From Pseudobutyrivibrio ruminis AD2017 (GTDB lineage Bacteria > Bacillota > Clostridia > Lachnospirales > Lachnospiraceae), in the NCBI RefSeq assembly GCF_000424305.1, contig NZ_KE384162.1:62001-126000 (forward strand): a stretch of DNA of 64,000 nucleotides. The letters are read 5' to 3'. This document shows, in pieces, positions 7,907 through 17,159 of the stretch (positions are counted from its first letter, which is position 1; each line of letters begins with the position of its first letter). Under the pieces are notes generated by a model. The model was not told the origin of the DNA, did not search any database, and worked only from the letters and a program-made list of their open reading frames with translations. The translations under genes and the position numbers were made by a program.

Positions 7907-9343
7907 ATGAAAAATAGATTAAGCTTAAGTTTTTTTCGCAGTATAGGTTTTAAGATTGCATTAATTATAATTCTCGTAGGCATCATACCATTTATGGTAT
8001 GTGTGCCTATTTCTTTGCGCGCATACGAATCTGTATCTATTCATACTGATGGTACAAATCTTATGGCACAAGCCATTTCCTATAACAATCAAATTGTAAC
8101 TAGTGGTTACGCTACAGGTGAAGATAATGAAGTGTTAGATAACGAATTTAAATCTGTTGCTGACAGTTATAATGGTAGAATTCTTATTATCAATTCCACA
8201 CTTAAAATCGTAAGAGATTCATTTATGGCTGATATTGGAAAGACGGTAATATGGGAAAATATTATCTATTCAATGCAGGGTGAATCCCTTTATTATTACG
8301 ACAAAGCCACTAATTATCTGATTGTGTCAGTGCCACTTGTTAATTCTGATGGAGAAATTGTTGGCGTTCTTGTAATGAATAAATCCATGGATTATTTAAC
8401 ACAGAATGAGGATTCCTTCATTTCCTATATGTTAATCGGAGCGGTAGTTATTTTTTCTCTTACAATAATAATTGCCGTAGTTGCTCAGATTTATTTTTCA
8501 AGACCTCTCAAGAAGATGTCAAATTCTTTGGATTCAATCATTAGAGAATATGATACCTTACTTCCAGAAGAATCATCTTTTGTTGAAATTGAAAACATTT
8601 CTTCTAAGTTTAACGAGGTTATTGGAAAGCTACATTCTATTGATGAATCCAGACAGGAGTTTGTTTCGAATGTGTCTCATGAATTAAAGACACCACTTAC
8701 TTCCATGAAGGTATTAGCAGATTCCCTTAATGGTTCTGAGGATGTGCCAATAGAAATGTATAAGGAATTTATGATGGACATTGGTGATGAAATCGATAGA
8801 GAAACCAAAATCATCAATGATCTTTTGAGTTTGGTTCGAATGGATAAGAGCGGTGCAGAGCTTAATGTTTCTGCGGTAAACATTAATGAGCTTATCGATC
8901 ATATCCTTAAAAGACTTAAGCCTATTGCTGAAAAAGCAGATGTACAGGTTGTTTACGAATCCTTCAGACCTGTTGTTGCTGAGGTAGATGAGGTTAAGTT
9001 TACACTTGTTATAACTAATCTTGTAGAGAATGCCATTAAATACAACAATCAGGGTGGCTGGGTGCATATTTCGCTGAATTCTGATCATCAATTCTTCTAT
9101 ATAAAGGTAGAGGATAATGGTCTTGGAATTCCAGAGGATTCTGTAGAGCATATATTTGAAAGATTCTATCGTGCGGATAAATCACATTCACGAGAAATAG
9201 GTGGAACAGGACTTGGACTTGCGATTACAAAGAGTTCAATTGCCATGCATAATGGTGAAATCAAGGTTCGTTCTACATTGGGAGAAGGCTCAACATTTGA
9301 TGTTAGAGTTCCTCTTAATTACATCAAGAAGGAGGTGCACTAA
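7907..9343 (+). CDS. Sensor histidine kinase, partner of the upstream regulator
   Basis: A 478-residue membrane kinase. TM1 is at about 15-37, an extracellular sensor of about 135 residues follows, and TM2 is at about 175-195, followed by a short HAMP-like linker. The HisKA box FVSNVSHELKTPLTSMK carries the phospho-accepting His258. The ATPase domain shows the N box (NLVENAIKYNN), VEDNGLGIP and GGTGLGLAI. It ends immediately before the GerMN lipoprotein with no spacer (stop at 9343, next start at 9344), so translation is probably coupled. Confidence 0.95.
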   Translation: MKNRLSLSFFRSIGFKIALIIILVGIIPFMVCVPISLRAYESVSIHTDGTNLMAQAISYNNQIVTSGYATGEDNEVLDNEFKSVADSYNGRILIINSTLKIVRDSFMADIGKTVIWENIIYSMQGESLYYYDKATNYLIVSVPLVNSDGEIVGVLVMNKSMDYLTQNEDSFISYMLIGAVVIFSLTIIIAVVAQIYFSRPLKKMSNSLDSIIREYDTLLPEESSFVEIENISSKFNEVIGKLHSIDESRQEFVSNVSHELKTPLTSMKVLADSLNGSEDVPIEMYKEFMMDIGDEIDRETKIINDLLSLVRMDKSGAELNVSAVNINELIDHILKRLKPIAEKADVQVVYESFRPVVAEVDEVKFTLVITNLVENAIKYNNQGGWVHISLNSDHQFFYIKVEDNGLGIPEDSVEHIFERFYRADKSHSREIGGTGLGLAITKSSIAMHNGEIKVRSTLGEGSTFDVRVPLNYIKKEVH

Positions 9344-10351
9344 ATGAAAAAGCTTAATCGTGTGCTTTCTGTTGTGATGGTATTTGTTCTTATGCTTTCT
9401 TTTGCTGCATGTGGAAAGAAAACAGCTATTTCAAATGGAAAGATTTATTATGTTAGAGCAGATAAGGCAGGCATCATAGCTGTAAATTATAATTTCGAAA
9501 ATGTTAGTACAGACGATTTAATCTCAGAGGCTTTAAATGAACTTTCAAAAGATACAGATGATATTGATATTATTAACACCATTCCTGTAGGAGTAACTGT
9601 TAAGAACTGGGAGCTTAGCAATAAAAGCTTAAATCTGTATTTAGTAGGAGATTATGAATCATTAGATACTTACACTGAAATATTGGTTAGGGCTGCTATT
9701 GTAAAGACATTAGTGCAGATAAAGGGCGTTAATTCAGTTTCTATATTTGTAAATGATTCACCTCTTTTAGATTCTAATGGTGAGGCAATCGGAACAATGA
9801 CTGCTGATACCTTTATTGAAGATTTTGGACAGGAAACTGATTCATTGCTTCATACAGAGCTTACTTTATATTTTGCTAGTGCAGATGGTGTATCCACTGT
9901 TCCTGAAAAGAGAGAGGTTTATTACAGTAGAAACGTTACTCTTGAAAAGCTTGTTATGGATCAGCTTCTTAAAGGACCGGAAACTGAAGGCTTGCTTTCA
10001 GCTTTACCAAATGGCTCTAAGCTTAATTCCATTACAGTATCGGAAAACGGTGTGTGCATTGTAAACTTTGATGCGGCGGTTGAGACTGCAGTAGCTGGAG
10101 TTACAGAAAATGTCACTGTTTATTCAGTAGTTAATTCACTTACTGAGCTTGATAATATTAAGCAGGTTCAGATTTTGGTTAATGGTGAAACACCTCATTT
10201 ATCTAATACGGATATGGATTTAACAAAAGCCATTTCTAGAAACGAAGATATCATCAATGAACAACCAGTTGATTATGATGATGAGCAAATGTATTTAGAT
10301 GAAGATTATTCTGAGGAATACGTTGAAGACGAGGTAGTTCCTGAAGAATAG
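9344..10351 (+). CDS. Lipoprotein with two GerMN domains
   Basis: A 335-residue lipoprotein with signal peptide and lipobox LSFAACG (Cys at about 24). Two GerMN-type repeats follow, at about 30-165 and 170-285. Each has an alternating strand/helix pattern, with SLNLYLVGDYESLD in the first and VCIVNFDAAVE in the second. An acidic tail (YDDEQMYLDEDYSEEYVEDE) ends the protein. GerMN domains occur in Bacillus GerM and in actinobacterial LpqB, a lipoprotein that works with the MtrAB two-component system. Here too the gene follows a regulator-kinase pair, so a role as an outer accessory of the kinase is plausible. Confidence 0.85.
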   Translation: MKKLNRVLSVVMVFVLMLSFAACGKKTAISNGKIYYVRADKAGIIAVNYNFENVSTDDLISEALNELSKDTDDIDIINTIPVGVTVKNWELSNKSLNLYLVGDYESLDTYTEILVRAAIVKTLVQIKGVNSVSIFVNDSPLLDSNGEAIGTMTADTFIEDFGQETDSLLHTELTLYFASADGVSTVPEKREVYYSRNVTLEKLVMDQLLKGPETEGLLSALPNGSKLNSITVSENGVCIVNFDAAVETAVAGVTENVTVYSVVNSLTELDNIKQVQILVNGETPHLSNTDMDLTKAISRNEDIINEQPVDYDDEQMYLDEDYSEEYVEDEVVPEE

Positions 10352-10370
10352 TTTTTAGGAGGAAATAAGC

Positions 10371-12704
10371 TTGCGAAGAAAGTTATGCTTAATTTCCTTG
10401 GTGTATGTTTTTATTATTGCATTTAGTGTGTATGGCCCCTTGGATTTCATAGGGGCCTACGCAAAAGTTAATACTGTTTCGTCAGTTATAGCTGATGGAG
10501 ACAGGATAGATGTACAAGGTAATATTATCCGCAAGGAAATTAAAAAAGATTCGACAATTTATTATGTTAAGGATGCCGATATTTACTGCGAAAAGGGTAC
10601 CTTAACAAACATTTCTATCATATTTAAATTAGATTCCGATAAAATTCCAAACAAAAGTAAAGTTAATATTACAGGCACTGCCAAGCTATTTCAAAAGCCC
10701 AGAAATGAAGGGGGCTTTGATGAAAGGTCATATTATAATTCGCTAGGTTATTATCTTATGGTTGATGGGGCAGATGTGAAGGCGGTTAAGGCTGGTAGAT
10801 TAATTAGCCTTGATTTGCTGTACCGATTAAACAAGGGTGTGATGTCAGTTTACAGCAAGTCTCTTCCTGGCGAGGAAGCTGGATTTCTTGGCAGTGTTTG
10901 TTTAGGAAATAAAAGTGACCTGGATAGTCAGCTGAAATTATTGTTCCAGCTTGTTGGCATTGCACATATCATGGCTGTGTCTGGATTACATATTTCAGTT
11001 GTATGTATGTCTTTTTACAGGTTCTTGAGGGCAAGAGGCATTAGCTTTTTGGCAAGTGGTATTGTAGCTGGAGTAATTGCAGTTATGTATGGCCTTTTGA
11101 CCGGTGGAAGTATTTCTTCAGTTAGGGCTATAGGCATGTTTTTGATTTATATTCTGGCTGATATTTTAGGAGAATGCTATGACAGCCTGACAGCTCTTGC
11201 AGTTATGGCGGACTTATTGTTATTTGATAATCCTTTATATTTAACAAATGCAAGTTTTATATTTTCCTTTGGAGCAATACTTGCAATAGTGCATTTGGTT
11301 ATTCCATTGAACAAAATGTATACAAGCTTTTGTAGTAGAAAAAGGAGACTACGTATAAGCGATAATGGATTTGATTACAATGAAAAGGAGCCCATTCTTA
11401 TCAGATTTAAACAGTGGATGGGTTCTAGCATTATTTTTTCATTTTCTATTACCGTGTCCATGCTTCCTTTGGTTACTTATTTTTATTACGAAGCACCTTT
11501 ATATTCAGTTATATTAAACACCTTGATTTTACCATTAATGCCAGTCCTTCTTTTGGTGGGACTTGTGGGTGGATTTGTAGGATTATTAGTCTTTCCTGCG
11601 GGTCATGGAATTCTATTACTCACTCATATAATCATTTATTTGGATGAAATGATTGCGACAATTTTTTCAAAGCTACCTTTAGCAAATGCTGTGGTTGGAA
11701 GGCATGGTATTTTGGCTGCAATTATTTATTACATTGCCCTGGCTCTTATATGCAATATGTTTAAGCTTGAGAAATATATAAGAGGCATATATGCAAATCT
11801 TAAAGAGGAATCTAATCCTAGAGTACTACTTAGAACAGCCAAAAAGCAGCTTACAGTTGTAATGGTGTTATTTTTTGTTGCAGGGATGATATGGTTGATT
11901 CCTGAAAAGCAGGGCTTTGAGGTTGATATTCTTGATGTGGGACAAGGTGATGGAATATACATCAGCTCAGGAGATGGCGTTAGATTTTTTATCGATGGTG
12001 GCAGCACAAGCTCTGATGCAGTTGGAAAATATACACTGCTTCCTTTTCTGAAATTCAAAGGGGCAGGTCATATAGACTATTGGTTTTTGTCTCATATGGA
12101 TTTGGACCATGTGTCAGGTGTGCTAGAGCTTCTTAGCACAGGCTACAGAATTGATAATATCGTACTTTCTTCTGAGATTCCTAGTGGAGATATCTTGAAC
12201 CAGCTTATTGCTTTGGCTCAGGCTAATGGAACGAATATTGTTTACATGAGTCAGGGCGACATCTGTGGCACCAAGCATTTATCATTTAAATGCGTATATC
12301 CATTTGATGGAATTACCTCTGATGATATTAACGCTTTATCACTGTCTCTTTTAATGGAATACGATAAAGACTGTGACGGAGAATGTGACTACTTAGGCTT
12401 CTTCGGAGGAGATATCGGTGCCAAACAGGAACAAGCTATAGCAGCCAGTGGTCAGGTTGGGCATGTTGATTTGCTAAAGGTCAGTCATCACGGCAGTAAA
12501 TATAGTACAAACGAGCAGTTTTTATCAGTGCTGTCACCTGATGTGGCTGTAATAAGTTGTGCTAAAGTAAATCGCTACGGCCATCCATCTGCTGAAGCTA
12601 TCGAACGACTAGAATCCGCGGCAGGCAAAGTATATTACACCATGAATTCTGGCCGCATAAAAGTAACCACAGATGTTATAGATGAATACGTAAAACCGGA
12701 TTAG
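10371..12704 (+). CDS. comEC: ComEC/Rec2-family DNA uptake channel
   Basis: A 777-residue membrane protein that should form the channel passing single-stranded DNA into the cell. It has an N-terminal membrane helix and an OB-like outer domain. The competence membrane domain (about 160-490) contains GIAHIMAVSGLHISV, and a C-terminal metallo-beta-lactamase domain (about 515-777) has DVGQGDG, SHMDLDHVSG and HHGSKYS. Translation starts at a TTG at 10371 behind AGGAGG (10358-10363). It ends the com operon; no terminator follows before the dyad array starting at 12735. Confidence 0.94.
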   Translation: MRRKLCLISLVYVFIIAFSVYGPLDFIGAYAKVNTVSSVIADGDRIDVQGNIIRKEIKKDSTIYYVKDADIYCEKGTLTNISIIFKLDSDKIPNKSKVNITGTAKLFQKPRNEGGFDERSYYNSLGYYLMVDGADVKAVKAGRLISLDLLYRLNKGVMSVYSKSLPGEEAGFLGSVCLGNKSDLDSQLKLLFQLVGIAHIMAVSGLHISVVCMSFYRFLRARGISFLASGIVAGVIAVMYGLLTGGSISSVRAIGMFLIYILADILGECYDSLTALAVMADLLLFDNPLYLTNASFIFSFGAILAIVHLVIPLNKMYTSFCSRKRRLRISDNGFDYNEKEPILIRFKQWMGSSIIFSFSITVSMLPLVTYFYYEAPLYSVILNTLILPLMPVLLLVGLVGGFVGLLVFPAGHGILLLTHIIIYLDEMIATIFSKLPLANAVVGRHGILAAIIYYIALALICNMFKLEKYIRGIYANLKEESNPRVLLRTAKKQLTVVMVLFFVAGMIWLIPEKQGFEVDILDVGQGDGIYISSGDGVRFFIDGGSTSSDAVGKYTLLPFLKFKGAGHIDYWFLSHMDLDHVSGVLELLSTGYRIDNIVLSSEIPSGDILNQLIALAQANGTNIVYMSQGDICGTKHLSFKCVYPFDGITSDDINALSLSLLMEYDKDCDGECDYLGFFGGDIGAKQEQAIAASGQVGHVDLLKVSHHGSKYSTNEQFLSVLSPDVAVISCAKVNRYGHPSAEAIERLESAAGKVYYTMNSGRIKVTTDVIDEYVKPD

Positions 12705-12734
12705 GATATCTTGCTTTTTGTTATTGTTGCAATG

Positions 12735-13089
12735 GTTACTATCCGTGGTAGAAAGAGCGCGTGTAGATAGTAGGAGGTATAGCTGTGACTACTATCTGAG
12801 CCTAAAGATTGAAATATAGATAGTAGTAGCTTTGAGAGCGACTACTATCTAAGCGGGGAGATAGCTAAATAGATAGTAGTGCTTTTTTAGAGGCTTACTA
12901 TCTATAGAATAAATTCATTTTACAGATAGTAATGGCCAGTTGGATGACTACTATCTGTGAAGAAAAAAATGGCATAGATAGTAGTTGTAGGTGATAGGGC
13001 TACTACCTGTAAGGGAAAATTAATTATAGATAGTAGTGCAGAAGAGAATGGCTACTATCTCATATGAAATATTCATTTTAGATAGTAAT
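12735..13089. repeat. Dyad array A: alternating 10-bp inverted arms upstream of the nuclease gene
   Basis: Fourteen copies of a 10-bp arm alternate in orientation: ACTACTATCT-type arms start at 12735, 12788, 12841, 12894, 12947, 12999 and 13051; AGATAGTAGT-type arms start at 12765, 12818, 12871, 12924, 12976, 13028 and 13080. Gaps alternate strictly between 19-20 nt and 13 nt, so the period is 52-53 bp (mean 52.5, five helical turns). Arms vary by 0-3 bases, while gap sequences differ freely between units. It can be read as seven 39-40-nt dyads separated by 13 nt, or as six 33-nt stem-loops plus two half sites. The last arm lies 21 bp before the nuclease start codon. The space between comEC and that gene (12705-13110) holds nothing else recognisable. 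Confidence 0.95.
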
Positions 13090-13110
13090 AATGATCGAAA
13101 GGATATATTT

Positions 13111-13902
13111 ATGAATGTTAAAGAATTAGAAGAAGAATTAGAAATTGTAAAAAAACATAAGAAAAAGGTTATGTTAGAACTTAAAAATTATTCTGACATT
13201 ATAAACCACACATTAGTGCAGAAGAAAAGTAATAAATGCTATCAATATTATTATAGGGATGATTCTAAAGATTTAATATATATTAAGGCAGATGATAAAC
13301 AATTAGCAAAGCGGTTGGCACAAAAGGAATATTATGAAAAGTTACTTGCCAATCTTTACGCACAGGAAAAATCTATTGAAAGATTTTTATGTAAGTATAA
13401 TGAAACCTATTTAAAAGAGACTTATGAGTCTTTAGCTGATGGAAAAAAGCGACTGGTGAATCCAATTGAAAAAACGGATGATGAATTTATAACTGAATGG
13501 AGAAAAAAATATATAGGAGAGCAAAATTCATATGATTTTTCAGTGTCATACACTACAAACAAAGGGGAGGAGGTTCGCTCAAAATCAGAAAAGATTTTGG
13601 CAGATTTATTTGCTAAGTATGGAGTGATTTATAAGTATGAACCAGAAATAACGTTGTACAACGGACGTAAAGCCTATCCGGATTTTGCATTATTGAATAT
13701 TAGAGAAAGAAAGACATATTTCTGGGAACATTTTGGATTGGCCTCTGATGAATCATATTCTGATAAGAATTTGGCAAAACTGGCAAAATATGAAAAATCA
13801 GGAATACTTCTAGGGGATAATCTTATAGTGTCGGTGGAAGCTGAAGGTATAGGAATTGATATTAAGCTTGTAGAAGAGAAAATAAAAAGATTACTAATGT
13901 AA
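13111..13902 (+). CDS. Putative PD-(D/E)XK-like nuclease between two dyad arrays
   Basis: A 263-residue protein of unknown function. The charged, helical N-terminal half (1-130) looks coiled-coil. The C-terminal half has the restriction-endonuclease-like pattern: E160 in VRSKSEK, E177 in YEPE, P190-D191 in YPDF and E206-H207 in FWEHFG, with His where many PD-(D/E)XK enzymes have Lys. The segment is typical of unnamed Firmicutes proteins. I chose the ATG at 13111 (ribosome site GAAAGG at 13097-13102); a start at 13036 would translate the last arms of array A. Codon use is AT-rich. The gene is flanked on both sides by copies of the same array, which suggests one functional or mobile cassette. 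Confidence 0.75.
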   Translation: MNVKELEEELEIVKKHKKKVMLELKNYSDIINHTLVQKKSNKCYQYYYRDDSKDLIYIKADDKQLAKRLAQKEYYEKLLANLYAQEKSIERFLCKYNETYLKETYESLADGKKRLVNPIEKTDDEFITEWRKKYIGEQNSYDFSVSYTTNKGEEVRSKSEKILADLFAKYGVIYKYEPEITLYNGRKAYPDFALLNIRERKTYFWEHFGLASDESYSDKNLAKLAKYEKSGILLGDNLIVSVEAEGIGIDIKLVEEKIKRLLM

Positions 13903-13935
13903 AGTTCTATGAGTTTGTATAAGTTTAAGCGTAAT

Positions 13936-14290
13936 AATACTATTTTCTAAAGAAAAATATAAATAGATAGTAACAGTTTTAGATGAGACTACTATCTGAG
14001 CCTTAAAAATGAAATATAGATAGTAGTGGTTTTGGGAGCGACTACTATCTAGACGGAGAGATAGCTGTATAGATAGTAGTGCTTTTTCAGAGGCTTACTA
14101 TCTATAGAATAAATTCCTTTTACAGATAGTAATGGCCAGTTGGATGATTACTATCTGAGAAGAAAAAAATGGCATAGATAATAGTTGTAGGTGATAGGGC
14201 TACTACCTGTAAGAGCAAAATTACTTTTAGATAGTAGACTATCTTAAAATGACTACTACCTGCGATGATAATTGATTCCTAGATAGTAAT
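13936..14290. repeat. Dyad array B: diverged copy of array A downstream of the nuclease gene
   Basis: It has the same organisation and number of arms as array A. ACTACTATCT-type arms start at 13936 (degenerate), 13988, 14041, 14094, 14147, 14199 and 14252; AGATAGTAGT-type arms start at 13965, 14018, 14071, 14124, 14176, 14229 and 14281. Corresponding arms are offset from array A by 1200 or 1201 bp. The middle gaps are nearly or exactly identical between copies (the 13-nt gaps at 12934/14134 and 12986/14186 match fully), and similarity falls towards both ends. The gene-free stretch 13903-14428 contains this array and, after it, only a terminator at 14367. Confidence 0.95.
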
Positions 14291-14366
14291 ATCAATTGGA
14301 ATAAAGAATTAAATATCTAGATGGGCCTTTAATTATGCTCCATAAAATGAATGAGTGTAGAAAAAG

Positions 14367-14405
14367 CATCACCATTGTATTAAAATATTTTGGTGATGTT
14401 TTTTT
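14367..14405 (+). terminator. Intrinsic terminator after array B
   Basis: CATCACCA (14367-14374) pairs with TGGTGATG (14391-14398), followed by seven Ts. It would end any transcript running through the nuclease gene and array B, 24 bp before the next start codon. Confidence 0.8.
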
Positions 14406-14428
14406 AGCATCCGGAAGGAGATTAATGT

Positions 14429-15502
14429 ATGAGTAAAAGACGTAAGAAGAGAATGCAAAGAAGAATAAGCATTATTTTGATAATAGTTGCTTTAGTGTTG
14501 GTGGCAGGATGTGGTGTTTATTATCTTGTGAAAAATAGTGATTCAAAAGATGAAATTACTGAGAACACTACAAAAAATACTGATGTTGGAACGGTTTCAA
14601 AGGATTCAAATAATGCTGAAGATAACAAATTAGAAAAAGTCGCAGATGATGATTCCACATTAACATTTGAGGATTTAGCACAGTATGGTTATTCGTTTTA
14701 TAGCGGTGCTGGTGGATGGGAAGATGATTTTGATATTGAAAAGGATGGCAGCTTCCACGGCAGTTATCATGATTCTGACATGGGTGATACCGGTGATGGT
14801 TATCCTGATGGAACATTTTATTACTGTGAATATGAAGGGCATTTTGAAGACATCCAAAAGGTGGATGAATTCACATATAAAATGCACATGAAGGATATTA
14901 ACATTATAAATAATGATGGTGAATACATCGCAGATGGCGTAAAATACATTCCTGTTACCCCATATGCACTTAACAATGCAGATGAAATAGAAATCTATAT
15001 GCCAGGTAAGCCTGTTTCAGAAATTGATGAGGAAGTTCAGCGCTGGATTTTTATTGAAACACAAGATCAGCAGGATACATTGGATAATCTCGCACTTGTA
15101 AATGTTAATGAAAATCAGGGTATTACAAGCTATACTAGAATGACTCCTAAGGAAGATGCTGAGAGTACTTATAATACATATAAAGAAAGCTATGATTATT
15201 ATGCAGACCAACTTTCAGAGGCTGCTACTACTGCAGATATGGTAGAGGCTACATCAAATCAGATTAGAGTTTCGGATGAGTGTCTTAATGATATCTGGAG
15301 AATAATAAAGTACAATACAGATGAAGCTACATTTAACAAAGCTCTTGAGGAGCAAAGACAGTGGCTTAAGGATAGAGACGCTAGTGCTGACAGAGCTACC
15401 GCAGAGCATTTAGGTGGTAGCCAGGCAACTGTTGATTACAATGATATCTATGCAACAATGACAATGGAACGCTGCAAGGAGCTGCTTAAGTATTTTAATT
15501 AG
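14429..15502 (+). CDS. Membrane-anchored protein with LprI-like C-terminal domain
   Basis: A 357-residue exported protein. Basic residues precede one hydrophobic segment (about 13-35); LVLVAGCG inside it resembles a lipobox, so it may be lipid-anchored. A Ser/Asp/Asn-rich linker and a unique, acidic middle domain follow (about 70-220). The last 100 residues resemble the LprI/DUF1311 family, with QIRVSDECLNDIWRII and the EEQRQWLKDRDASADR block. LprI homologues include lysozyme inhibitors, but that activity cannot be assumed here. The start follows GGAAGGAG. Confidence 0.7.
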   Translation: MSKRRKKRMQRRISIILIIVALVLVAGCGVYYLVKNSDSKDEITENTTKNTDVGTVSKDSNNAEDNKLEKVADDDSTLTFEDLAQYGYSFYSGAGGWEDDFDIEKDGSFHGSYHDSDMGDTGDGYPDGTFYYCEYEGHFEDIQKVDEFTYKMHMKDINIINNDGEYIADGVKYIPVTPYALNNADEIEIYMPGKPVSEIDEEVQRWIFIETQDQQDTLDNLALVNVNENQGITSYTRMTPKEDAESTYNTYKESYDYYADQLSEAATTADMVEATSNQIRVSDECLNDIWRIIKYNTDEATFNKALEEQRQWLKDRDASADRATAEHLGGSQATVDYNDIYATMTMERCKELLKYFN

Positions 15503-15539
15503 ACAATCTTAAAGCCCCTGACACTAAAGGATAAAATAA

Positions 15540-15830
15540 ATGGACACAACTAAATTAGAAGAACTATATAAAAAGATGACTCAGGTTCATGAGAAATCAG
15601 TTGAGATTATTGATAATCACAAGATATCCTCAATGCTTATGAACGAGTACAACAATAAGGTCAATCAATATGATGATATGTACAAATCATTAGAAACTAT
15701 GAAGGCTCTTGCTTCAAAGGAAGAGACAATAGATAATCTTATAAATCAGCAGATAGAGGCTTTGAGTGTGCGAATTAAATGGGAGCTTGATTGGCTCAAA
15801 AGGGTGGCAAGTTCTATAAATACAAAATAA
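15540..15830 (+). CDS. Small helical protein, possibly flagellar chaperone-like
   Basis: A 96-residue, charged, all-helical protein without signal or membrane segment. The AAAGGA at 15529-15534 serves the ATG at 15540. Size and heptad-like pattern recall FliT-type flagellar chaperones, but no diagnostic motif is visible, so the function is unassigned. A sigma-D-like promoter and a motility-type gene follow directly. Confidence 0.6.
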   Translation: MDTTKLEELYKKMTQVHEKSVEIIDNHKISSMLMNEYNNKVNQYDDMYKSLETMKALASKEETIDNLINQQIEALSVRIKWELDWLKRVASSINTK

Positions 15831-15851
15831 CATCATAGTGGACTTTTACTA

Positions 15852-15879
15852 TAAAGACTTATTAAAGGAGTGCCGATAC
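15852..15879 (+). promoter_or_regulatory. Candidate sigma-D (flagellar) promoter
   Basis: TAAA (15852-15855) and GCCGATAC (15872-15879) are 16 bp apart, close to the Bacillus sigma-D consensus TAAA-N15-GCCGATAT. Transcription would start near 15886, 83 bp before the EF-hand gene. Confidence 0.6.
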
Positions 15880-15939
15880 ATTTAAAGAAGACCAGGCATA
15901 GGGACGTGCAAAGGTCTTCAAGCGTTTGGCACTTTTTTA
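15869..15939 (+). terminator. Nested hairpin with T-run overlapping the sigma-D promoter
   Basis: An outer stem AGTGCC (15869-15874) / GGCACT (15928-15933) is followed by a T-run, and it encloses an inner 7-bp stem GAAGACC (15887-15893) / GGTCTTC (15913-15919). Transcripts arriving from upstream can form the whole structure and terminate. Transcripts starting at the sigma-D site would have only the inner hairpin. Confidence 0.65.
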
Positions 15940-15968
15940 TATTCTTTATTTGTGGAAAGGAGTCCGCT

Positions 15969-17159
15969 ATGAAGATTGAAAACAGCCATGTAAACATGGC
16001 ATCTAGTCACAATTCTTATTCTAGTACCCATGTAGAGCAGCTGACAATTGAACAACGAGCGAATGTGGATACGCTTGGTGCAGTTTTGAAGCTCTCGGAA
16101 GAAGGGGAAAAATCTTACAAAGAATCACTTGAACAGTTAAAGAAAAATGAAGAAGAGGCAGCTAAGGAAAGACAGAAAGAAAATTTGCAGAAAATGTTCA
16201 ATAAAATGGCAGAACATGATAAGCAGATTCGGGAAGCAAATGCTGGTATGAGTCAGTGGGACATGGAGGATTTGCAAATTAGTCTGGTAAAAAAGATTTT
16301 GGATTTGCTAAATGGAAAACGTAGTCCTGTGGAGAAGAAAATGTCTGATCAGTTGAAATCCTTTAATGCTTGGCAACGGAAGATTATAGGAAGCTGTGAA
16401 GCAGAAGGAGTAAAGTTCAGTGTAAATGGCGCTGAAGCAAAAACATTGAATTTAGCGTCCATGGCGTCAGTATCTCGTACTCAGGTGTGGCAAAGGATTA
16501 CCGCTACATCAGGCACACACTTAGAATATGAAAACACCACCTTTGCAAGTACAGGTGAGGTTCAGACATCTGATGGAAGAAGTCTAAGCTTTAATGTAGA
16601 GGTAACTCTTGGAAGAAGTCTCGTTCAAAGAATTGATTCATTAAAAGAGGAAATCTATACAAGGATTCTTACAGACCCGCTTGTTATTAACATGGATACT
16701 AATTTAACATCTATTTCAGACCAAAAATTTAAATTTGATATTGATTCAGATGGTGATGAGGATGAAATCTCATTTACAGGAAATGGAAGTGGATTTTTGG
16801 CGTTGGATAAAAATGAAGATGGCAAAATTAACGATGGCTCAGAACTATTCGGAACTAAATCTGGGGATGGTTTTAAGGACCTTTCAGAATATGATGAAGA
16901 CAAAAATGGCTGGATAGATGAAAATGATGCTATCTTTAACAAGCTTAAGGTATGGACAAAGGATGAAGAAGGTAACGACAAACTTTTGAATCTGAAGGAT
17001 GCTGATGTTGGGGCCATTTATCTTGGAAACATAGATACAGAATTCAGCTACAAGGATGGAATAGGAAATACCGATGCGGTTCTTAGAAAATCAGGAATTT
17101 ATCTAAAGGAAAGTACCGGTGCTGCTGGAACTGTAGCACATGTGGATTTAGCGTTGTAG
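15969..17159 (+). CDS. EF-hand-like calcium-binding protein
   Basis: A 396-residue protein without a clear signal peptide. The N-terminal 130 residues are coiled-coil-like and rich in Glu and Lys. Residues about 255-340 hold several Asp-rich loops of EF-hand/dockerin type: DIDSDGDEDE, DKNEDGKINDGSELFG and DEDKNGWIDENDAIF. They should bind calcium. The ATG at 15969 follows GGAAAGGAG; the longer frame from 15870 would run through the hairpin and is rejected. The sigma-D-like promoter suggests expression with motility genes. Similar proteins occur near flagellar genes in Clostridia; the exact role is unknown. Confidence 0.75.
   Translation: MKIENSHVNMASSHNSYSSTHVEQLTIEQRANVDTLGAVLKLSEEGEKSYKESLEQLKKNEEEAAKERQKENLQKMFNKMAEHDKQIREANAGMSQWDMEDLQISLVKKILDLLNGKRSPVEKKMSDQLKSFNAWQRKIIGSCEAEGVKFSVNGAEAKTLNLASMASVSRTQVWQRITATSGTHLEYENTTFASTGEVQTSDGRSLSFNVEVTLGRSLVQRIDSLKEEIYTRILTDPLVINMDTNLTSISDQKFKFDIDSDGDEDEISFTGNGSGFLALDKNEDGKINDGSELFGTKSGDGFKDLSEYDEDKNGWIDENDAIFNKLKVWTKDEEGNDKLLNLKDADVGAIYLGNIDTEFSYKDGIGNTDAVLRKSGIYLKESTGAAGTVAHVDLAL

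Follow-up and report, generated by a model that had tools for sequence, protein, structure and literature searches.

The window analysed here is a 64,000-nucleotide stretch of the Pseudobutyrivibrio ruminis AD2017 genome (NCBI RefSeq assembly GCF_000424305.1, contig NZ_KE384162.1, positions 62,001 to 126,000 of the forward strand). It contains a gene coding for a PD-(D/E)XK-like nuclease with an array of short inverted arms on each side, situated between a comEC-like competence gene and an LprI-domain protein gene (Table 1). An alternative in-frame GTG start at 13036 would fall within the left array.

Table 1. Features at the nuclease locus, in window coordinates
Feature	Coordinates	Strand	Description
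comEC-like competence gene	10371..12704	+	Precedes nucleases of this clade within the genus; context only
Left (upstream) dyad array	12735..13089	.	14 alternating arms, period 52-53 bp; seven '<N19-20>' units (ACTACTATCT-N19/20-AGATAGTAGT) with 13-nt linkers between
Single '<N19>' dyad in left array	12947..12985	.	ACTACTATCT-gtgaagaaaaaaatggcat-AGATAGTAGT
Nuclease gene	13111..13902	+	263 aa, PD-(D/E)XK-like
N-terminal domain, residues 1-118	13111..13464	+	One helix, a sheet of three strands (34-57) and a long helix (60-95)
PD-(D/E)XK-like nuclease domain, residues 158-262	13582..13896	+	Invariant motifs
Right (downstream) dyad array	13936..14290	.	14 alternating arms; diverged copy of left array
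LprI-domain protein gene	14429..15502	+	Downstream neighbour; context only

The nuclease and its flanking arrays

An earlier reading made from the sequence alone (the sequence-only reading) described two arrays of fourteen arms around this gene and distinguished them from CRISPR, and both points hold. The gaps between arms are 13 and 19-20 nt in both arrays (with arms placed by spacing), and the arms alternate in orientation, making them inverted and not direct repeats. The 8-bp arm core is AGATAGTA, some of the outer arms have 2-3 mismatches (e.g. GTTACTATCC at 12735), and each arm-N19-arm dyad spans 39 bp. Allowing at most one mismatch, there are 21 matches to AGATAGTAGT within 12765-14290 and 23 across the window, where 4.97 are expected and none of 100 shuffles reaches 23. 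The two arrays are not independent; the right array is a diverged copy of the left, with 91% ungapped identity over 256 nt at an offset of 1200, and spacers in register agree at 74% of positions against a background of 33%. Tandem Repeats Finder reports no repeat at the nuclease-flanking arrays, which is consistent with the array units being old and diverged. An Rfam scan of window positions 12500-14500 gave no match near the gathering score, and a promoter scan returned 12 promoters where 9.7 are expected.

The nuclease has the core fold and acidic motif that characterize the PD-(D/E)XK superfamily, its structural matches are of PD-(D/E)XK type, and AlphaFold models have pLDDT values of 92 and 94. 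The RSKSE and PDF motifs and the E..H of WEH are invariant in both alignments, W205 is almost invariant, and dN/dS for the nuclease is about 0.13-0.2. In 77 of 77 family members the catalytic domain matches the C-terminus of the candidate defence protein PDC-S68 (about 1,200 residues); there is no full-length match, and only profile positions 1074-1218 of 1221 align. A Pfam scan of the same 77 members identified no transposase family, and no Nop-domain match at E up to 0.01. Comparison of the N-terminal domain alone with solved structures gave no convincing DNA-binding-domain match, the best fold matches being prefoldin-like hairpins and chemokine-like sheets at E 0.077 or worse. Weak structural matches to the nuclease include phage proteins named homing endonuclease, endonuclease or DUF559, and matches in phages, plasmids and viral contigs are partial and mainly to the C-terminal domain. 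We note a homologue with 30% identity across residues 35-263 in a 4.2-kb faecal 'Bacteriophage sp.' record (MT839528.1:380-1063).

Arrays and nucleases across the family

Sampling of 294 genomes across the order found homologues of the nuclease in 58, representing 27 of 145 genera, and there are up to 11 per genome among 61 relatives. In the Lachnospiraceae of rumen and gut these genes usually adjoin a short inverted-site array. We examined 89 loci, consisting of the window locus, eight paralogs from the same genome and 80 other loci, some of the 89 being close relatives of each other. A flank was scored as carrying an array if its alternating-arm score beat all 100 shuffles, taking the best of word lengths 6-8 and treating controls alike. 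Among usable upstream flanks 59 of 81 pass and 22 fail, compared with 10 of 87 downstream flanks and with 3 of 68 and 1 of 80 distal controls (4 of 148 together). In a further 20 distant loci, which extend to other genera and to one more family of the order, 12 of 19 upstream and 4 of 19 downstream flanks pass; the sole pass among 19 far-upstream stretches is part of a very large array. The link between array and nuclease that the sequence-only reading proposed checking is thus supported. Flanking on both sides is not general: most homologues have an array upstream only, often stopping within about 50 bp of the assumed start codon. The array-nuclease-array layout is found in the window, in genomes G014 and G018, and at loci L055, L105, L124, L294 and L296. 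At L294 (G064 C5:165.7-169.4 kb) very large ACGGAC arrays lie to either side of the nuclease, with more than 40 alternating arms in total and a period of 53, and at L055 (L055:2447-5794; C1:587-591 kb) CTGTCACA arrays with similar spacers bound the nuclease and two ORFs without Pfam matches.

The window's own genome codes for nine homologues including the window's, eight of which have an array, each with different arms (AGATAGTA, ATCATCCC, ACTGTAAT, ACTTAACA, TACCACTA, AAAGTATA, CCGCCCAA and CTGTCACA). Seven are placed upstream and one (L054) downstream, with the window's on each side, and L055 has a second array 1.8 kb past the nuclease gene. The sequence-only reading noted neither these differing arms nor the same-arm arrays found elsewhere in the genome. 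The array sites look like binding sites of the adjacent nuclease itself. The exception is L049, which has no array, and we count this against our main reading. It directly precedes a gene that we take to code for a RecQ-like helicase (L049:3026-5695; C9:46.5-49.2 kb of the same genome), and RecQ is a neighbour at 1 of 138 nuclease loci checked (L049 only, within the stretch examined). No conserved partner gene was recognized around the own-genome paralogs in ORF listings inspected by eye, with few ORFs scanned with Pfam.

For 48 loci with clear arrays we compared arm similarity with protein identity. Arm similarity correlates with identity of the N-terminal domain (r 0.41, p 0.0005) and of the C-terminal nuclease domain (0.31, p 0.0005). 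The N-domain effect persists with the C-domain held constant (0.29, p 0.0005), and the reciprocal effect is 0.05 (p 0.10). By these comparisons arm sequence follows the N-terminal domain more than the nuclease domain, and the N-terminal domain, which arm similarity tracks, is therefore the probable arm-reading domain. In pairs with less than 50% identity the two partial effects are nearly equal (N 0.12, p 0.003; C 0.10, p 0.013), and this too counts against the main reading.

The sequence-only reading proposed selection on arms and on the distances between them, and comparison between genomes agrees with this. Of 640 arm-core positions 15 are changed, and of 1211 spacer positions 282, so the cores change about ten times more slowly; the final two arm positions drift in the manner of spacers (40 of 159 changed). 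Relative to G018, spacers differ at 44-55% of sites and cores at 4-5%, and gap lengths shift by no more than 1 base in nearly all units.

The periods of the arrays cluster near 5, 6, 7, 8 and 9 turns of 10.5 bp, mostly at 52-53 bp and then at about 63, 73, 84 and 94. Modal periods of 59 arrays are 51-54 bp in 40, 61-64 in 12, 72-76 in five, 82 in one and 106 in one, and the distant loci add periods of 60-63, 71-72, 83-84 and 94. Those of 60 and 71-72 are 1-3 bp below whole turns, and the upstream arrays at L279, L280 and L286 lack a clearly phased spacing. A Rayleigh statistic on array periods ignores shared ancestry. Among representatives with less than 55% identity, 25 of 32 have periods of 51-54, six of 62-64 and one of 76; because so many fall in the first class, the case for phasing rests on the other classes and on instances where one spacing within an array jumps by 9-11 bp (L134, 22 to 32; L079, 32 to 43; L051, 21 to 32; L110, 24 to 33). 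There are also spacing differences that fit no helical turn (L087, L101 and L055), and those of 50-53 bp represent skipped arms and are not evidence for phasing.

The sequences between arms are less irregular than first described, as the 19-nt spacers hold a central A/T tract. In the AGATAGTA family, positions 8-11 of the 19-nt spacer are 95-100% A/T, and a run of four A or T is present in 53 of 64 spacers of 19-20 nt (38 expected). The 13-nt linkers have no A/T centre, with such a run in 26 of 54 (22 expected). Family-wide, a significant A/T excess at the centre is limited to 18 of 52 arrays and 8 of 32 representatives, and we count the first figure against the main reading.

The arms are capable of pairing as single strands, and we considered a hairpin or cruciform. 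This reading is not favoured, as the variable arm positions 9 and 10 show no covariation in either the 13-gap (173) or the 19-gap (193) pairs. Partner arms agree above chance at position 4 in both pairings and at position 3 in the 13-gap pairing; since the position-4 agreement occurs in both, it probably reflects local amplification, base pairing being a less likely source.

Gain, loss and dispersal

Wherever it is seen in 29 genomes of the genus, the nuclease of the window's clade lies downstream of comEC. It is present there in 13 of the 29, plus one broken copy and one remnant. Arrays are on both sides at this home locus in G000, G014 and G018, and upstream in G003, G011, G019, G015, G022, G005, G013 and G012 (downstream partly seen for some); G017 has an upstream array with other arms. 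The arms in G003 are looser, and its upstream array passes the shuffles at word lengths 6 and 7 while the downstream stretch fails. In certain genomes the arms of the comEC-side nuclease are AGGTAGTA. This comparison leaves out G001 and G026, which have no downstream sequence, and uses short downstream stretches for G004, G012, G016 and G017.

G023, which has the closest comEC (91%), has a solo array and no nuclease, with the left-edge arm joined to the comEC end. G025 has a lone dyad with a spacer similar to that of the 12947..12985 unit, and no other piece of the cassette. There is a C-terminal remnant in G008, a broken gene in G009 and nothing in G006. The comEC-side nuclease has been lost repeatedly, in one case leaving a solo array and in another a single dyad. 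The sequence-only reading had suggested looking for empty sites in relatives, and these exist both at the home locus of G006 and at a clean G014 site corresponding to one of the dispersed arrays (L059, below).

The cassette is 91-96% identical to that of G014, most adjacent sequence is 59-86% identical and other blocks reach 92%; the G000-G014 identity patch has no sharp end at the arrays. Across window positions 9000-16500, comparison with G014 and G018 gives a mosaic of blocks of about 50-96% identity around the nuclease. Such mosaic identity suggests frequent recombination between species.

AGATAGTA arms occur at seven further places in the window's own genome, as six arrays of about 300 bp and one remnant. 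The six arrays begin with '<', end with '>' and carry no gene, and by eye the sites sit between divergent, convergent and co-directed genes alike with no promoter preference. No spacers are common to the own-genome arrays (identity is at background) save for left versus right at the nuclease, and there is thus no copying event visible among the dispersed arrays; copying of whole arrays was rejected on this comparison. Comparing 19-nt spacers within an array gives a likeness of 0.40-0.48 for five arrays and 0.70 for L057; spacers of different arrays score about 0.35. The common A/T centre accounts for part of this likeness, so growth in place is clear only for L057 and is likely for the other five. 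Not all of the paralogs have dispersed sites: exact TAGTGGTA..TACCACTA dyads of L052 are confined to its gene, and CTGTCACA dyads are at the gene and one other place.

The dispersed arrays vary in presence and size among relatives. The L059 array is absent from G014 and also from G006, with a single arm in G018 and G025, and the L057 array is represented by a single dyad in G006 and by a single arm in G014 and G025; neither site has a clear target-site duplication. G023 and G018 have a longer L062 array, G025 has a single <N19> dyad there and G014 has none. The L058 array is absent from G023 although the neighbours are the same, and has ATATTAC at both edges, which is ambiguous. Beside the L058 array is a MazE/MazF-like pair (L058:2304-2893; C2:328 kb), which lies in a stretch that is matched in G000, G014 and G023 and is missing together with the array in G018 and G025. 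Another dispersed repeat, at L058:1400-1462, is short, includes a GC-rich hairpin together with gaaggtgactgatgaggg, and recurs dozens of times across the genus genomes searched.

Exact dyads are present in 11 of the 29 genus genomes, in G015 solely at the home locus and in the other 10 away from it. Five of those 10 have a cognate gene. Of the other five, G023 and G025 have scars, the locus is empty in G006, and there is a single dyad in each of G007 and G012. In form, this is the outcome (arrays without the gene) that the sequence-only reading had named as adverse to its proposal. Away-from-home exact dyads are found in 5 of 6 genomes with exact dyads in the home array and in 5 of 23 others (p about 0.01 with relatedness ignored). 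In the arrays looked at, core mismatches per arm are 0.53 without the gene and 0.47 with it, which shows no clear decay in gene-less genomes and leaves upkeep of the arrays by the nuclease conjectural.

Interpretation and comparison with known systems

Our preferred reading, to which we give a little short of an even chance, is that the nuclease acts on its own cognate double-stranded DNA sites, and that these sites are semi-selfish repeats served by a vertically inherited, dispensable gene. The N-terminal domain would read the 8-bp arm (AGATAGTA in the window), and a dimer would grip one 39-bp dyad with the A/T tract at its centre. As dyads are close to whole helical turns apart, neighbouring dimers could lie on one face of the helix and may bind cooperatively. 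Such side-by-side dimers are suggested by the dyad symmetry, the near-whole-turn spacing, the co-variation with the N-terminal domain and the 39-bp unit left after contraction, a single '<N19>' being the residue in G006 and G025. The array before the gene probably holds it under its own control, as the array's frequent position immediately ahead of the start codon suggests. That arrays lengthen and shorten by whole units points to recombination, which the enzyme may plausibly trigger; if it cuts or nicks arrays, repair by recombination could expand or shrink them in 52-bp steps, founder dyads elsewhere could grow into new arrays, and the sites would persist as a repeat family as REPINs do with RAYT. 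Besides the points noted above, we weigh against this reading the 22 of 81 upstream flanks that fail, the unclear decay of arrays in gene-less genomes, the lack of common spacers among dispersed arrays (with clear growth in place in one of six), the confinement of exact L052 dyads to their gene, the lack of a convincing DNA-binding match for the N-terminal domain, and the agreement between partner arms at positions 3 and 4. It is possible, though we hold this more doubtfully, that nucleases with private dyads drive this amplification in place to phased arrays, enzyme and sites co-evolving without transposition and forming many distinct pairs per genome.

Several other explanations can be considered. 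The nuclease could be a defence enzyme that cuts invaders, with the upstream array as an operator or decoy limiting the protein and paralog arms differing through an arms race. The PDC-S68 match, the up to 11 homologues per genome with gain and loss, and the frequent end of upstream arrays no more than about 50 bp from the assumed start codon would fit this. However, no defence-type neighbours were recognized by eye at the own-genome paralogs (few ORFs were Pfam-scanned) and gene-less arrays in unrelated intergenic places would be superfluous, and we regard a defence role as unlikely, if by no means far-fetched. Helical phasing, dyads and arrays upstream of a gene are typical of cooperative regulators, and the protein could be mainly a DNA-binding regulator or chromosome organizer for which the arrays are operators and catalysis is secondary. 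Invariance of the catalytic-type motifs (RSKSE, PDF, E..H), seven dispersed arrays or remnants without promoter preference by eye, and dispensability of the gene make this distinctly unlikely.

A composite transposon, with the dispersed arrays as deletion derivatives, is close to the mobile cassette entertained by the sequence-only reading; it would account for the recurrence of the array-nuclease-array layout, the solo array kept in G023, the ATATTAC at both L058 edges and the closeness of the cassette to that of G014 relative to most adjacent sequence. Against this, the gene of this clade keeps one syntenic place downstream of comEC, which ruled out the mobile cassette as a main reading, and dispersed arrays are gene-less, share no spacers with the flanking arrays and have no clear target-site duplication at L059 and L057. 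With other blocks up to 92% identical, ordinary recombination can explain the identity patch, and we consider a transposon quite improbable. That the array, like those of CRISPR or TIGR-Tas, specifies guide RNAs, with arms for repeats and spacers for guides, is very improbable given the missing Nop-domain match in 77 members, spacers of 13 and 19-20 nt rather than 9, inverted arms, periods that change by about helical turns, spacer drift far outpacing that of arms, and gene-less dispersed arrays. Neutral tandem repeats beside an unrelated gene merit next to no credence; L057 spacers do show tandem amplification, but the association, the conservation of arms over spacers, the phasing and the co-variation with the protein all contradict this.

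Among the matches listed in searches of largely open-access literature, taken from titles and opening abstract lines, we found no description of a nuclease paired with an inverted-site array, in agreement with the sequence-only view of the layout as undescribed. In iteron and plasmid-centromere arrays, a protein binds cooperatively to repeats that are phased on the helix and adjoin its own gene; here the protein is nuclease-like, chromosomal and dispensable, and arrays are also present elsewhere without the gene. The catalytic fold is common to PD-(D/E)XK endonucleases of Type II restriction and homing systems, for which dyad-symmetric recognition is expected, whereas here the sites are 39-bp dyads in arrays abundant in the host, and no methyltransferase is found among the three window neighbours scanned with Pfam. 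Insertion sequence or MITE copies have a common inner sequence, unlike the spacers here, which are at background except between left and right nuclease arrays. CRISPR-Cas repeats are direct and in one orientation, and here arms alternate. TIGR-Tas is alike on the surface, having an array of two alternating short repeats up- and/or downstream of a single-gene effector (PMC12045711). TIGR-Tas has a Nop-domain protein, alternating repeats of 8-12 nt and spacers of 9 nt (up to 12 nt), in contrast to the lack of a Nop domain, the longer spacers, the inverted-copy repeats and the phasing by about helical turns seen here.

The system resembles REPIN-RAYT in logic, but not in enzyme. REPIN-RAYT consists of a vertically inherited gene tied to dispersed inverted repeats with the same arms, which outlast the gene and amplify and delete locally (PMC8049555). 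Likewise, same-arm repeats are dispersed beyond the nuclease gene at seven places in the window's genome (although not for paralog L052), and the gene appears vertically inherited without self-copying at the comEC side in 13 of 29 genus genomes. The departures are that the REPIN-RAYT enzyme is a Y1/HUH transposase and the one here is PD-(D/E)XK-like with no transposase Pfam family, that helically phased arrays with at least 6-7 dyads take the place of single hairpin doublets, and that there are several paralogs per genome with their own arms and arrays at different places without common inner sequence. If our reading is correct, this would be a second bacterial gene-plus-repeat partnership beside REPIN-RAYT, one that relies on a PD-(D/E)XK enzyme and on sites in double-stranded DNA, and would account for a class of Lachnospiraceae intergenic arrays. 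Each array would repeat its binding motif beside the gene that reads it, providing dozens of natural protein-site pairs from which to learn a DNA-reading code.
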